From positions 1 through 42,801 of the forward strand of contig JAUWLR010000007.1 of NCBI GenBank assembly GCA_030613615.1: 42,801 bases of DNA, written 5' to 3'. The translations under genes were made by a program, and so were the position numbers. Shown one piece after another: positions 36,044 through 41,719 of the stretch (position 1 is its first letter; each line of letters opens with the position of its first letter). The notes below the pieces were generated by a model. It ran no database searches. It was not told the origin of the DNA and saw only the letters and a program-made list of their open reading frames with translations. This DNA comes from Candidatus Eiseniibacteriota bacterium (GTDB lineage Bacteria > Joyebacterota > Joyebacteria > Joyebacterales > Joyebacteraceae).

Positions 36044-36107
36044 GTGCGTTCCTTTCGTGCGTTCCTTTCGTGCGTTCCTTCCGTGCGTTCCTTCCGTGCG
36101 TTCCTAG
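36044..36107. repeat. five-unit 13-bp intergenic tandem repeat
   Basis: GTGCGTTCCTTTC ×2, GTGCGTTCCTTCC ×2, GTGCGTTCCTAG, starting at 36044, 36057, 36070, 36083 and 36096. Confidence 0.9.
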
Positions 36108-36817
36108 AGCTGATGGCTTCCGCTCCTGCACTCGAACATCGCGCTTCCCTTACCCACGGCGCCGGTGCCGACGTCCTCTATCCTCACGCTGAGACCGTGC
36201 TCTCCGTCCGAGAGCTCTGGCCGCTCTACACGGATCAGACAGACGGGCATGTACTTCACGTCGGCTCCGCCCAGGTCACCATACGCCTCGTAGTACCACT
36301 GCAGCGACGACACGGCAGCAGGCTCTCCGTCCAGCTCGATGCCTACGTGGGCCTCATCCAGGACCGGCGCAACGTCGGCCACCTCGATCTCCTCACCTTC
36401 CACTACGGCGAGCCTGACGGGGACCTCTCCGAAGAACGTCTCCATCGAGATCGGGGCGAACGAGAGATAGACGTACCGATCATCCGGCGAATCCCAGACG
36501 GAGAGATTGTGCAGCTCGAGCCGGCCGCTGTCCGAGCCTGCTGAAGCGCTCTCCTCGAACGCGGCTTCGTTCGCGCGCGGCGTGTTGGGACGCCCCGATG
36601 GAATGGCTGTGTCCTTGATGACGGGAGGAACGACGCTCGCCGTCACGCACCCCGCACCGTCCGGCGCCACCGCAATGAGGGGAGCGCTGCAGGTGTCCCG
36701 CGGCGGTTCACCTGCGCGTGCGTCGGTAGAGCCACACACCCTCACCGTCGTGGAGAACGCGACGACCACGAGCGCGAGCAGCGCCAACGAAGCGCACACT
36801 CTCGCGACTGCCCTCAT
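36104..36817 (-). CDS. secreted protein of unknown function
   Basis: Signal peptide-like AVARVCASLALLALVVVAFSTTV. RBS GAGAGGAG before ATG at 36817. Confidence 0.65.
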   Translation of the reverse strand: MRAVARVCASLALLALVVVAFSTTVRVCGSTDARAGEPPRDTCSAPLIAVAPDGAGCVTASVVPPVIKDTAIPSGRPNTPRANEAAFEESASAGSDSGRLELHNLSVWDSPDDRYVYLSFAPISMETFFGEVPVRLAVVEGEEIEVADVAPVLDEAHVGIELDGEPAAVSSLQWYYEAYGDLGGADVKYMPVCLIRVERPELSDGEHGLSVRIEDVGTGAVGKGSAMFECRSGSHQL

Positions 36818-36895
36818 ACGAGACTCCTCTCTCATGTGGTCAGATGTCTTCCTCACCCTCTGCTCGTTCCGGGCGGGTGAGGGAACTACAACGGG

Positions 36896-38239
36896 TCAGT
36901 TGGCCCGTTCCGGCGAACCGTTAGCCGTGGCGGGTCCCCAAAGGGCACCTGTTGCAGGCGCACCTCGCGCGGCAGGGGACCCGCCCTTGGCCATCCGGGG
37001 GGAATCCGGAGCATCGGCTGTTTCTTCGTCAGTTGAGTCAGAGGTCATCTTCACGATGACCATGGTGAGATCGTCCGTCTGGGAAGCGCCGGCTGCGAAG
37101 TCCTTGACGCTCGTGTAGACCCGCTCCTCGATCTCGCGGGCCGAGGCATGACGGTGCTCGATCAGGAGCTGCTCGAGCCGCTCCTCCCCGAACATCTCGC
37201 TCTCGGGGTTTTCGGCCTCGGTCACGCCATCGGTGTAGAGGACCAGATCGTCTCCCGCGCAGAGAGTCGCTCGTCCCTCCTCGTACTCCGAGTTGGGCAC
37301 GACGCCGATCACGAGCCCTCCACGATCGAGGTACTCGCGACTACCATCGCGCCTGAGGATGCACGGAGGATTGTGCCCGGCGTTGACGTAAACGAGTTCG
37401 CCGGTACGAGTGTCGAGAACCGCGTAGAAGAAGGTGATGAAGACGCTGTCCTCCGTGTAACCGTGCACGAGCTTGTTCACCCTCGTTATGAGCTCCACCG
37501 CGGGCACCTGACTTTCGGACAGCACCCGAACGGCCGCCTGCACATTCGCCATGAGAATCGCAGCGGGCGTTCCCTTGCCCGAGACGTCTCCGATCGTGAT
37601 CGCCAGCTTGCCGTCGCCGATGTCGATGACGTCGTAGCAGTCACCGCCGACGTGCCTCGCCGGAACGGTGAACGCGAACATGTCGAGCCCGGGCAGCTTC
37701 GGGAACGTCTTGGGCAGAAGTTCCATCTGGATGTCTCTGGCGATGTTCATCTCGTGCTCGAGCTTCCCGCGCTCCGCCGCCTCCTGCTCCATCTGGATCC
37801 TCATCTGCTCATACGTGTAGGTGACGAGCCCGACAGCCAGCGCCAGAACGCCGTTGATGGTCAGGACCATGAGGGCGAGCCTCAGCTGGTAGAGAACCAC
37901 CAGAGGGTTCACGAGCATGGCGAGTCCGCTCCCCAGCACGCCACCCGCCACCAGTGTCAGCCCCGCCAGCGGGATCCTGAGGAACACCGGAAGCCCACTG
38001 TACCTTGGTAGCACGAATTTCGCGGTGAGGACCGCCGCGAAGCCGACGACGTTCGCGAACACGATGCTCATTGGAATGAGCCCGCGCACCGTGGTATCGC
38101 TCTCGGCGAACACGTAGATCGCGACTCCCACGGCGAGCCCCGCGAGGCTGTTCCCCAGCACCCAGAGCCAGACGGCCCTGGCCCCGAACGGCCTCGCTTC
38201 CTGAAGCACAGTTGAATTGCCGCGCGTTGCTCCGCTCAT
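36896..38239 (-). CDS. PP2C/SpoIIE-type serine phosphatase (RsbU-like) with multi-pass membrane sensor domain
   Basis: DIQMELLPKTFPKLPGLDMFAFTVPARHVGGDCYDVIDIGDGKLAITIGDVSGKGTPAAILMA; YVNAGHNPPCILRRDG; GDDLVLYTDGVTEAENPESEMFG. Confidence 0.94.
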   Translation of the reverse strand: MSGATRGNSTVLQEARPFGARAVWLWVLGNSLAGLAVGVAIYVFAESDTTVRGLIPMSIVFANVVGFAAVLTAKFVLPRYSGLPVFLRIPLAGLTLVAGGVLGSGLAMLVNPLVVLYQLRLALMVLTINGVLALAVGLVTYTYEQMRIQMEQEAAERGKLEHEMNIARDIQMELLPKTFPKLPGLDMFAFTVPARHVGGDCYDVIDIGDGKLAITIGDVSGKGTPAAILMANVQAAVRVLSESQVPAVELITRVNKLVHGYTEDSVFITFFYAVLDTRTGELVYVNAGHNPPCILRRDGSREYLDRGGLVIGVVPNSEYEEGRATLCAGDDLVLYTDGVTEAENPESEMFGEERLEQLLIEHRHASAREIEERVYTSVKDFAAGASQTDDLTMVIVKMTSDSTDEETADAPDSPRMAKGGSPAARGAPATGALWGPATANGSPERAN

Positions 38240-38243
38240 CCGG

Positions 38244-39599
38244 TTACGCTCCGGTCCCGGTGCCCGGGAATTCGTCAGGCAGCCCGTTTGAGACGACCGG
38301 AGCGGGCTCGAACGCCGCGTCCAGCCTGGTCTCTTTCCGCTGCATCAGCGCGCCCAGTCCGAAGAAGATGATGACGACACCGACCAGAGTTCCCACGAGG
38401 GGTATCGCCGTCACGAGATAGACGATCGCGAGACCCAGCAGCATCGAGGGGATCGGAGAGACGTCCGTCCTTCCACCCCTCTTGAGGATCAGGTTGCCAA
38501 GCCAGATCGAGAAGTAGAACTTCGCGATGTAGAGAGCGATAGCATAGGCCAGCCCGACAATGAACATCAGCGGGATCGTCAGAATGAAGACCAGCAGCAT
38601 GAGAAGCACGATCGGCATGCAGATGAAGGTGACGAACCCTATCCCCAGACTCTTGAGGGGCTTGGTCCGGATGATCTCCGCCGTCCTCCTGGCATGGTCG
38701 GTCGTCAGAGCGACAATGATCGTGCCCGCAACGAGTGCGGCGAGGAAGCCGAGGAAGTGGAACAGGACGCTGACGCCGCCGAAGAAATCGAAGTCGATTT
38801 CCTCCTCGATGACCTTCTGGAACGTGACCTCGCCCGCGACCGTCCCCTCGGGGATGTCGATCTCGGAGGGGCCCTCGTAGAAGAGATCGCCTCCGATGTG
38901 CGCATCCGGGCCCAGCCTGATGCCTCCATCGGTGGTTATCTCAGCGTTGCCCGCGATCGTGCCGTCCATGTCCAGGAACCCGGTCATGATGCGGGCCCTT
39001 CCGCCGACAGCTCCATCCATGGTCACCGTGGCCGCCGCGATGATGACGTCCCCGTCGATGACCGCGGTCTCGCTGATCTGGACATCCTTGGCGGCGACGA
39101 TGAAGTCCCCGACGACGTAACCGTCGAGATAGAACGTCTCGCACGCGAACCGCACGTCGTCTCCAACCACACCGGTGACGCGCATCGTCTCGCACATGCC
39201 ATTCAGGTCCTGGGTCACCGTGCCGGAGATCGTCCCGTCCTGGAAACCCGCGACGATGTCGCCGTCCAGCGTGCCCGCGATCTCGAGGCTCTGCGCCCAT
39301 ATGTAGAGATCCGCTTCCTTGGTCTCTCCCTCGGGCACGAGATATTGCCCGGCCTGTTGGATATCGATCTTGCCGTGGCCCGGTGTCAGCACGTGGACGG
39401 TGCTGGCCGCGACGCCGCGCGCGGGGTCGCCCGCACCGGTGTCGACGGCCTCAGCAGGCGTTGGCGTCAGCAGGATACCCAGCGCGACAGCCACGACGAG
39501 CAGGCCCAGCGCCACCCGGATCATCACGTTCCTGACGTCTCTCTCTCTCACCACCGCGACGGCGACCTGTCGCGCTCTCACGATGCGCATCGCATTCAT
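38244..39599 (-). CDS. bactofilin-like (polymer-forming) domain with N-terminal signal/TM and C-terminal TM helices
   Basis: N-terminal VALGLLVVAVALGILLTPTPAEA; beta-helical repeats (IAGTLDGDIVAG, VVGDFIVAAKDVQISETAVIDGDVIIAAATVTMDGAVGG, LGPDAHIGGDLFYEG); then several TM helices. RBS AAGGAG before ATG at 39599. Confidence 0.87.
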   Translation of the reverse strand: MNAMRIVRARQVAVAVVRERDVRNVMIRVALGLLVVAVALGILLTPTPAEAVDTGAGDPARGVAASTVHVLTPGHGKIDIQQAGQYLVPEGETKEADLYIWAQSLEIAGTLDGDIVAGFQDGTISGTVTQDLNGMCETMRVTGVVGDDVRFACETFYLDGYVVGDFIVAAKDVQISETAVIDGDVIIAAATVTMDGAVGGRARIMTGFLDMDGTIAGNAEITTDGGIRLGPDAHIGGDLFYEGPSEIDIPEGTVAGEVTFQKVIEEEIDFDFFGGVSVLFHFLGFLAALVAGTIIVALTTDHARRTAEIIRTKPLKSLGIGFVTFICMPIVLLMLLVFILTIPLMFIVGLAYAIALYIAKFYFSIWLGNLILKRGGRTDVSPIPSMLLGLAIVYLVTAIPLVGTLVGVVIIFFGLGALMQRKETRLDAAFEPAPVVSNGLPDEFPGTGTGA

Positions 39600-39645
39600 G
39601 GTGCTCTCCTTGCGTGTGCGGCCCATACGTTTCTCTTACACACAC

Positions 39646-39675
39646 AGTGTACGCGTTATTCGCCCCGCACGGCAA
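39646..39675 (-). promoter_or_regulatory. candidate sigma70-like promoter of the bactofilin/phosphatase operon
   Basis: Minus strand TTGCCG-N18-TACACT about 45 nt upstream of the start codon. Confidence 0.4.
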
Positions 39676-39685
39676 AGCCAAGCCT

Positions 39686-39735
39686 GTGAAGTGTGGATTC
39701 AGGTGGGTGAAGTGCTTCTGAGCGGGGGTGAAACG
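39686..39735. promoter_or_regulatory. three phased direct repeats, candidate LytTR response-regulator operator
   Basis: GTGAAGTG (39686-39693) N13 GTGAAGTG (39707-39714) N13 GTGAAACG (39728-39735), exact 21-bp period, 10 bp upstream of the candidate -35 element. Confidence 0.6.
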
Positions 39736-39824
39736 CAGCGGCCCGACTACCCCGATTTGTCATGTGAGCGAGCGCCGTGTGGAGGGAAGCGGTGGCCCGC
39801 CCTCCCCGGCCGGACCGATCTCGG

Positions 39825-40580
39825 CTACCAGGGCAGTATCTCCCGCAGGCCCTTCGCCCGCGCTCTCGAGAGCACAAGCTCGCTCTTCTTCTCGTCGTCG
39901 ACGATTATCTTGTACTTGCCGCTGAACCACGGCACGATCTCTTTGACGTGATTCAGGTTGACGATGCTGGAGCGGTGACTCCGGAAGAAGACCCGGGGGT
40001 CCAGGCGGCTCTCGAGCTCCGCCATCGTCGCGTTCATCATGTACTTCTCGGAAGCGGTGTGCACAAAGACCAGTTCGTCCTCGACACCGATCCACACGAT
40101 GTCGTCCAGGTCGACAAGTACGATCTTCTTTCCCTTCATGACGGGGAGCCGCCGCATGTCGCGTGACCTGATGAGCCCGGCGAGTCTCGCCATCTGGTCG
40201 TCGAGCTGAGGGGTGTCATCAAGCAGCGACCGTGCCCGCTCGATCGCCTCACCGAGCCGCTCCCTCGAGATCGGCTTCAGCAGGTAGTCGACCGAGTTGA
40301 CCTCGAACGCCTTGATCGCGTACTCGTCGAAGGCCGTCGCGAAGATGACGAGCGGAACGTGTGTGAGCGCCTCGACGACCTCGAAGCCGTCCATGCCGGG
40401 CATCTGTATGTCGAGAATGACGACATCGGGCCCAAGCTCGCCCACCAGCTCGACCGCCCGGAGGCCGTTCTCCGCCTCACCTGCGACCTCGACGTCGGGG
40501 ATGTCCGCCAGGAGTTCCTTGATCCGCGCCCTGGCCAGCTCCTCGTCGTCGACCACGAGCACCCTCATCGACCTTCTCAT
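39825..40580 (-). CDS. LytTR-family response regulator
   Basis: Receiver: MRVLVVDDEELARARIKELL, VVILDIQMPGMDGFEVVEAL, VDYLLKPISRERL. LytTR: IVLVDLDDIVWIGVEDELVFVHT…FFRSHRSSIVNLNHVKEI. Confidence 0.96.
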   Translation of the reverse strand: MRRSMRVLVVDDEELARARIKELLADIPDVEVAGEAENGLRAVELVGELGPDVVILDIQMPGMDGFEVVEALTHVPLVIFATAFDEYAIKAFEVNSVDYLLKPISRERLGEAIERARSLLDDTPQLDDQMARLAGLIRSRDMRRLPVMKGKKIVLVDLDDIVWIGVEDELVFVHTASEKYMMNATMAELESRLDPRVFFRSHRSSIVNLNHVKEIVPWFSGKYKIIVDDEKKSELVLSRARAKGLREILPW

Positions 40581-40582
40581 GT

Positions 40583-41719
40583 CTAGCTCGGCCCTCCCTT
40601 CAGGCCCTCCGGTTCGATGCCGCCCTCCGCGGGCAATATGAGCTCAACTCTGGTTCCCGTCTCCCTGGAACTCTCGAACTTGAACCACTCCCCCTCACCG
40701 AATCGCGTGGCGAGCCGGTCGCGCACGTTCCTGAGCCCGTAACCCTCCGCCAGCATTTCCTCGAGGTCGATGAGACCGGTCCCCTTCCCGTCGTCCTGAA
40801 CAACTATCCGCAGGGTATCGTCGACGAGCGTCGCCTTTATCCTGATGGTTCCTCCCTCGACCATCGGGGAGATCCCGTGCCTCACCGCGTTCTCCACGAC
40901 CGGCTGGAGGATCAGAGGCGGAACCGGCACGTCGCGCGCGCCGGGATCGATCGCCTGCTCGATGTTCAGACGGCTGCCGAAGCGGGCCCGCTCCACGTCC
41001 AGATAGGCGTCGACCAGCTCCATCTCCTTCCGGAAGGGAACGCTGCCCTTCTCGGAGGCGAGCAGGGTGCCGCGGAAGATCCCCGCCAGCCGCTCGAGGG
41101 TCTGCTGCGCCGCGTCGGGATTGGACGAGATGAGGGCGGAGATCGAGTTCAGTGCGTTGAAGAGGAAGTGCGGGTTGATCTGCGCCTTGAGGGCCTTGAG
41201 CTCGGACCGTGCGGCGAGCTCGCGCAGTCGCTCCTCCCTGACCCTGTTGCGAGCGATGGCGGCGTAGCTCTTCTCTATCTGATCTCTCAGCCGTTCGTAG
41301 TTGTAGATGATCAGGCCGACGATGACGGCGATGATGCTGTCGACCACAACGAGCAGGAGAAGAAGCCTGCCCTGGTACAGGACGGTGAGTGGATTCCAGA
41401 AGATGACGAGAGCGGACCCGAACGCGCCGCCGGCCAGCAGTGTGACGATGGCGAGAGGAAGTCGGACAAGGGTCGGGAGCTCGCTGTAGCGAGGCAGCAC
41501 GAACCGGGCGGAGAAGCCCGCCGCGAACCCGATGGCGTTCGCGAAGAGGATGCCCGTGGGAACGAACCTGGCCATGGCGCCGTCCTCTTGCGAGAACAGT
41601 GCGATGGCCACACCCACGAGTCCGCCGGCCAGCGAGTTCGCAAGGAGCCAGAGGACGAGGCCGCGCGCCGTCGCCCAGAACTGCCCCGTGGCTGTTCCTG
41701 CCCGATTCACGTCTATCAC
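40583..41719 (-). CDS. LytS/YehU-type sensor histidine kinase with multi-pass membrane sensor domain
   Basis: LKAQINPHFLFNALNSISALI; VPPLILQPVVENAVRHGI; HATPase GLRNVRDRLATRFGEGEWFKFES. GTG start with GGGAG RBS. Confidence 0.95.
   Translation of the reverse strand: MIDVNRAGTATGQFWATARGLVLWLLANSLAGGLVGVAIALFSQEDGAMARFVPTGILFANAIGFAAGFSARFVLPRYSELPTLVRLPLAIVTLLAGGAFGSALVIFWNPLTVLYQGRLLLLLVVVDSIIAVIVGLIIYNYERLRDQIEKSYAAIARNRVREERLRELAARSELKALKAQINPHFLFNALNSISALISSNPDAAQQTLERLAGIFRGTLLASEKGSVPFRKEMELVDAYLDVERARFGSRLNIEQAIDPGARDVPVPPLILQPVVENAVRHGISPMVEGGTIRIKATLVDDTLRIVVQDDGKGTGLIDLEEMLAEGYGLRNVRDRLATRFGEGEWFKFESSRETGTRVELILPAEGGIEPEGLKGGPS

Follow-up and report, generated by a model that had tools for sequence, protein, structure and literature searches.

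A LytS-type histidine kinase and a SpoIIE/PP2C Ser/Thr phosphatase, encoded in one gene cluster of a Candidatus Eiseniibacteriota genome, carry at their N-termini two copies of the same four-helix membrane module. The cluster lies on contig JAUWLR010000007.1, in a stretch of 42,801 nucleotides that is referred to here as the window. The use of one sensor module with two output chemistries is real, conserved and of single origin. With moderate confidence the arrangement is read as a duplicated and fused sensor module within a locally wired envelope-signalling locus, which is the function that we infer for the cluster. The principle of shared modular sensors is already known, and sensory domains common to kinases and phosphatases have been proposed to form an exchangeable toolkit (PMC12143880). 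Within the reach of our searches, what is new is the module itself, its pairing within one cluster and the candidate feed-forward link. The locus offers a natural paralogous pair, phylum-wide, whose linkers are constant in length, with a candidate operator between the two outputs, and it opens a direct test of whether one sensor can drive both His-Asp and Ser/Thr outputs. Moreover, it represents a first candidate envelope-signalling circuit for this uncultured lineage.

The shared membrane module and its origin

The N-terminal membrane regions of the two proteins are paralogues, with a similarity far above chance. BLASTP aligns the kinase and the phosphatase with 71 of 146 residues identical and 102 of 146 similar (E=5e-40), and the alignment is limited to the N-terminal membrane region and a short stretch past the fourth transmembrane helix (TM4). 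When only the module is aligned the identity is 52%, in agreement with the 66 of about 129 positions that had been counted by hand in an earlier, sequence-only reading of the window. The module alignment scores 353, against at most 65 in 1000 full shuffles and at most 116 (mean 62, standard deviation 13) in 1000 shuffles within 10-residue windows, which retain the hydropathy pattern. Both genes lie where the sequence-only reading had placed them, on the minus strand, and its assignment of the outputs holds: PF06580 His_kinase with HATPase_c in one protein, PF07228 SpoIIE in the other, and a regulator with Response_reg and LytTR domains next door.

The module is formed of four hydrophobic segments (residues 21-39, 57-75, 89-107 and 120-138 in the kinase), and its outer loops measure about 10-17 residues. 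It had not been recognised as any named sensor, and a scan of Pfam and NCBIfam at E values up to 1 bears this out, since in both proteins the membrane region is without a match to any sensor model, 5TMR-LYT and MHYT included. Nor was a significant match to the module found in the PDB, either by sequence or by fold, the fold search having used a poor model.

Both outputs have intact catalytic cores. Residues H184, N277, D309 and G311 of the kinase are invariant among 17 aligned orthologues, as are the catalytic D200, D218, D337 and D390 of the phosphatase among 17 aligned sequences, leaving its metal ligands intact. Against the full-length TIGR02865 model, which describes SpoIIE proper, the sporulation phosphatase, the PP2C protein scores 66.5 bits with a cut-off of 490.8. 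The lengths of the connecting regions are fixed. In the kinase, 42 residues separate a conserved YxYE motif at the end of TM4 from the phospho-accepting histidine in all 16 proteins measured, the distant G077 protein included; the G011 kinase, in which a motif is changed, was left out of this measurement. In the phosphatase, 54 residues separate YxYE from a GGD motif in 17 of 17, and the helical linker bears an ARxIQ..LLP motif. A structural model of the phosphatase, of low overall confidence, places a helix at residues 112-174 ahead of the catalytic domain. The fixed spacing to each catalytic motif suggests that TM4 and the cytoplasmic helix pass the signal as a rigid dimeric helix. Linkers of this kind, helical and dimeric, represent a mechanism that has been shown for RsbU and proposed for PP2C phosphatases, kinases and GGDEF cyclases alike (PMC12143880), and the concept of the signalling-helix linker has been set out separately (PMC1592074).

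Of 20 genomes searched from the small phylum to which the window belongs, 19 match a profile of the module, usually with two copies per genome; the sole genome without the module, G002, is a fragmented assembly. Relatives in GenBank carry the label 'Candidatus Eisenbacteria'. Each family genome with a PF06580 kinase yielded this kinase and no other of its type. In all 13 genomes with a contig that spans the locus, the gene order is kinase, LytTR regulator, bactofilin-like membrane protein and PP2C phosphatase. The four-gene cluster sits downstream of MatE-PfkB-Amidase_2-Peptidase_S13, and hence beside peptidoglycan remodelling genes, as part of a longer syntenic block.

In a tree of the module, all of the PP2C copies fall on one side and all of the kinase copies on the other, separated by one branch with 100/100 support. 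As this single split is confined to one small phylum, it points to one ancestral duplication and fusion held in synteny rather than to repeated fusions, and the module copies are shown to trace to one such event predating the split of the phylum's genera. The expectation of a distinct family recurrently fused to LytS and SpoIIE outputs is thus borne out in part: both fusions exist and their genes are close together in every spanning contig, but the fusion is not recurrent. On the most economical view, the module was first present on the kinase and was later copied once to the phosphatase; the G077 kinase is the only sequence from outside the phylum, and the tree does not fix the root. Two genomes, G011 (L060, L061) and G019 (contig C123, L010), have three module copies each, in which the extra copies resemble genus g1 and are possibly due to assembly mixture or contamination.

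Wider sampling covered two overlapping sets of 393 genomes each, drawn mostly from different families, with a search that was loose at its first step, so that distant relatives may escape it. Among the matches listed, one outside the phylum was clear. This is G077, a member of a different phylum, which has the kinase version only. Its kinase and LytTR regulator are found without a bactofilin-like or PP2C partner within the 17 kb examined. An ECF-type sigma factor gene (L055:5645-6277) follows the kinase-regulator pair of G077, in the place of the bactofilin-PP2C pair. Two of the weak matches outside the lineage were inspected and were dismissed as chance, being an LspA-like lipoprotein signal peptidase and a TauE-like permease (E about 0.006-0.007); the others had E values above 0.01. 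A search of viral contigs returned no relative. Matches on plasmids at the level of the full protein are mostly owed to the kinase or phosphatase core; two have aligned N-termini, from Vibrio campbellii (H1) and Fusobacterium animalis (H31), and the N-terminus of H1 reaches an E value of 1.1 with the hidden Markov model (HMM) of the module.

Candidate operator, candidate phosphatase partners and proposed circuit

Footprinting of the region between the regulator and bactofilin genes in four loci of the genus reveals (T/C)TTCAC three times in direct repeat, with a period of 21 bp. Among 30 lags, 21 ranks first, and none of 300 shuffles equals it in any of the four loci. A repeat matrix built from several loci finds its top locus-wide triple match at the same place in four held-out loci, strongly in L046, moderately in L047 and L054, and weakly in L050, where the score of 10 is within the shuffled range (one of five shuffles reached 16.3). 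At up to one mismatch, exactly one site is found in each of the genus genomes with the module (G000, G001, G003, G004 and G005); in G002, the genus genome with no module match, there is no site at up to two mismatches. By published description, LytTR sites consist of repeats 9-11 nt long that are separated by spacers of 11-13 nt, and the YpdB repeat pair GGCATTTCAT has the same 21-bp period (PMC4847170). The repeats fit this layout, and their pattern suggests that they are likely to form a LytTR operator. A LytTR consensus in the published style gave no match in the intergenic regions. Since the repeats follow the regulator gene and precede the bactofilin-PP2C pair, the kinase pathway probably governs production of the phosphatase. 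The wiring would then be hierarchical, with kinase and regulator inducing the phosphatase, and not simply one of parallel outputs.

In the sequence-only reading, the window had shown no STAS, anti-sigma or sigma partner. Genome-wide searches, in which sigma factors were not searched for, agree that STAS and anti-sigma kinase genes are absent from the contig, and locate both elsewhere in the genome, where a STAS gene adjoins an RsbW-like gene on contig C198. An RsbW-like protein is present in 20 of 20 genomes of the phylum, with a neighbouring STAS protein bearing an INSTGLG motif in 20 of 20 loci examined. Partner-switching logic, as had been proposed, therefore has its components in the genome but not at the locus, and the STAS/RsbW-like pair is a likely target of the phosphatase.

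A 1200-aa PAS/GAF hybrid histidine kinase (L130:3077-6679) is divergent from the STAS/RsbW pair, and matches to it lie beside the pair in several relatives. A second STAS protein of the same genome (L131:5749-6099, contig C143) is found in a division and cell-wall cluster, between MraZ-like and RsmH-like genes. The genome encodes three SpoIIE-domain proteins in all. The other two are a 695-aa protein in which only SpoIIE is recognised and an FHA-GAF-PP2C protein; their genes (L133:3449-5536 and L134:4942-6654) are near genes of the Toastrack group, DUF2807 (L133:1921-2580) and DUF4097 (L134:1912-2949).

The circuit may be envisaged in four steps, given in order of falling support. A dimeric helix composed of TM4 and the cytoplasmic helix would relay the signal to both outputs. 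The phosphorylated LytTR regulator would bind the 21-bp triple repeat and turn on the bactofilin-PP2C transcript, in which case the module would act twice, at first in the induction of the phosphatase and afterwards in the gating of its activity. The active phosphatase would dephosphorylate an RsbV-like STAS protein encoded elsewhere, thereby shifting an RsbW-like partner. Finally, the signal may be the state of the membrane or of the peptidoglycan, sensed within the membrane or via the bactofilin-like protein, as the outer loops leave no room for a binding domain. Such a scheme would amount to a coherent feed-forward loop in which one sensor is read twice, as the kinase induces the phosphatase gene and the phosphatase has its own copy, possibly with mixed kinase-phosphatase receptor complexes; we put it forward only tentatively.

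Competing explanations and known systems

Several observations weigh against a locally wired envelope-signalling locus. The two copies of the module have diverged, to about 49% identity, and pairs from the same genome (49.4%) are hardly closer than pairs across genomes (48.5%), so no homogenisation is seen in this comparison. The copies may no longer sense the same thing, and a common signal would have to be deduced from their sequence identity. In AlphaFold models of both proteins TM4 runs on as a single helix, although with low confidence (pLDDT 62 for the kinase and 59 for the phosphatase). Conserved gene order by itself says little about joint function, since synteny extends over the entire neighbourhood in this small clade. 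The operator matrix fails in L045, L052 and L056, which are g3 loci, and scores weakly in L044 and L050, and no sigma-70 consensus promoter was found at the operator region. The STAS/RsbW pair is unlinked to the module locus, and either of the two other PP2C proteins could be its phosphatase.

The kinase and phosphatase might instead be produced together and answer the same stimulus independently, with no regulatory link between them. The same module in the same locus with active catalytic sites in both proteins is compatible with this, but the operator-like repeats, unique in the genome within the genus, lie exactly between the kinase-regulator and bactofilin-PP2C pairs, and independent outputs appear unlikely. 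It is also conceivable that the module is no more than a dimerisation element and membrane anchor, with the signal supplied by a partner that touches both four-helix copies, for instance the bactofilin-like protein, in the way that LiaF acts on LiaS. The shared sequence would then mirror a shared partner rather than a shared ligand. The outer loops of the module, together with a membrane protein with a predicted solenoid encoded between the kinase-regulator and PP2C genes in every complete locus, make this a possibility worth keeping, albeit a minority one, whereas the G077 kinase and regulator, with neither partner nearby, speak against it. Mixed oligomers formed through the module, within which the phosphatase modulates the kinase directly or vice versa, could draw on the identity of about 50% over the entire transmembrane bundle and on the equal spacing of its helices. 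The kinase and phosphatase groups parted before the phylum's genera split, and the lack of homogenisation also argues against such contacts, which are considered improbable.

The remaining explanation is that the module belongs to a broad, unnamed class of four-helix LytS-type kinase sensors and was fused once by chance to a PP2C domain, with no special circuit. AlgZ has four transmembrane helices (PMC4064291), and the module shares its topology and length, with four such helices in the first 150 residues. Profile comparison with five other four-helix kinases gave a probability of 32% over 133 columns, with controls below 0.5%, but the five had been picked by hand after weak matches were seen. 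Direct comparison of the module HMM with about 30 other LytS-type N-termini (AlgZ not in the set) was not significant, with a best E value of about 0.01, and a chance fusion leaves the conserved operator unexplained. Remote kinship to other four-helix LytS-type sensors is plausible at the sequence level; the absence of any special circuit seems rather doubtful.

A locally wired signalling locus has features in common with several known systems. As with AlgZ/AlgR, BtsS/BtsR and YpdA/YpdB, a PF06580 kinase with a multi-transmembrane N-terminus is accompanied by an adjacent LytTR regulator and operator-like direct repeats of 21-bp period; unlike these LytS/LytTR systems, the module fits no named sensor model, a copy of it sits on a phosphatase, and there are three repeats rather than two. 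Phosphatases of the RsbU/RsbP/RssB type likewise have a SpoIIE-type domain, invariant metal-binding aspartates, a helical linker with ARxIQ..LLP, and STAS and RsbW-like proteins in the genome. Here, however, the input is a four-helix membrane module instead of a PAS, RsbU-N or receiver domain, the STAS/RsbW genes are not adjacent, and two-component control is presumed. Sensory domains exchanged among kinases, GGDEF cyclases and phosphatases (PMC1592074, PMC12143880) also join one input through a fixed-length helix to different outputs, whereas in this case both outputs are in one gene cluster, the module was duplicated once, and one output apparently regulates expression of the other. LiaFSR-like envelope stress systems (PMC11237479) similarly combine a short-loop kinase with a membrane protein of the locus that has a beta-rich part. 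The protein here is bactofilin-like, with no Toastrack or LiaF match, and the regulator is of the LytTR rather than the HTH type.

Layout of the locus

Positions of the genes and sequence elements of the locus within the window
Feature	Position	Strand	Remarks
Histidine kinase, LytS type	41719 to 40583	minus	378 aa, GTG start; PF06580 E=1.8e-25, HATPase_c 8.1e-10
Parts of the kinase			four-helix module (about residues 17-150), then helical linker, H-box H184, N277, D309, G311
Four-helix sensor module of the kinase	41270..41677	minus	52% identical to PP2C copy
LytTR response regulator (receiver and LytTR DNA-binding domain)	39825..40580	minus	Response_reg 5.9e-24, LytTR 4.4e-28
Putative LytTR operator, three direct repeats GCGTTTCACCCC / GCACTTCACCCA / ACACTTCACAGG, period 21 bp	39683..39736	minus	upstream of bactofilin gene
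Bactofilin-like protein	38244..39626	minus	PF04519 E=9.9e-08
SpoIIE/PP2C Ser/Thr phosphatase with four-helix module	38239 to 36896	minus	447 aa; PF07228 E=2e-53
Four-helix sensor module of the phosphatase	37784..38191	minus	aligned with kinase copy
D-Ala-D-Ala carboxypeptidase (Peptidase_S13), upstream gene, cut by contig end	41831..42799	minus	same cluster as L044:3537-5336 (PF02113 E=2.2e-102)

The regulator gene starts 2 bp past the end of the kinase gene. The bactofilin-like protein is formed of an N-terminal hydrophobic segment, a predicted beta-solenoid region of the bactofilin type and four C-terminal transmembrane segments. In relatives, an amidase gene (Amidase_2 E=1.5e-25 in L044) is found just upstream of the Peptidase_S13 gene. 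At the other end of the cluster, the PP2C gene is followed by a gene on the minus strand (36104-36856) for a 250-aa protein with no Pfam match, for which comparison with other loci gave no counterpart.

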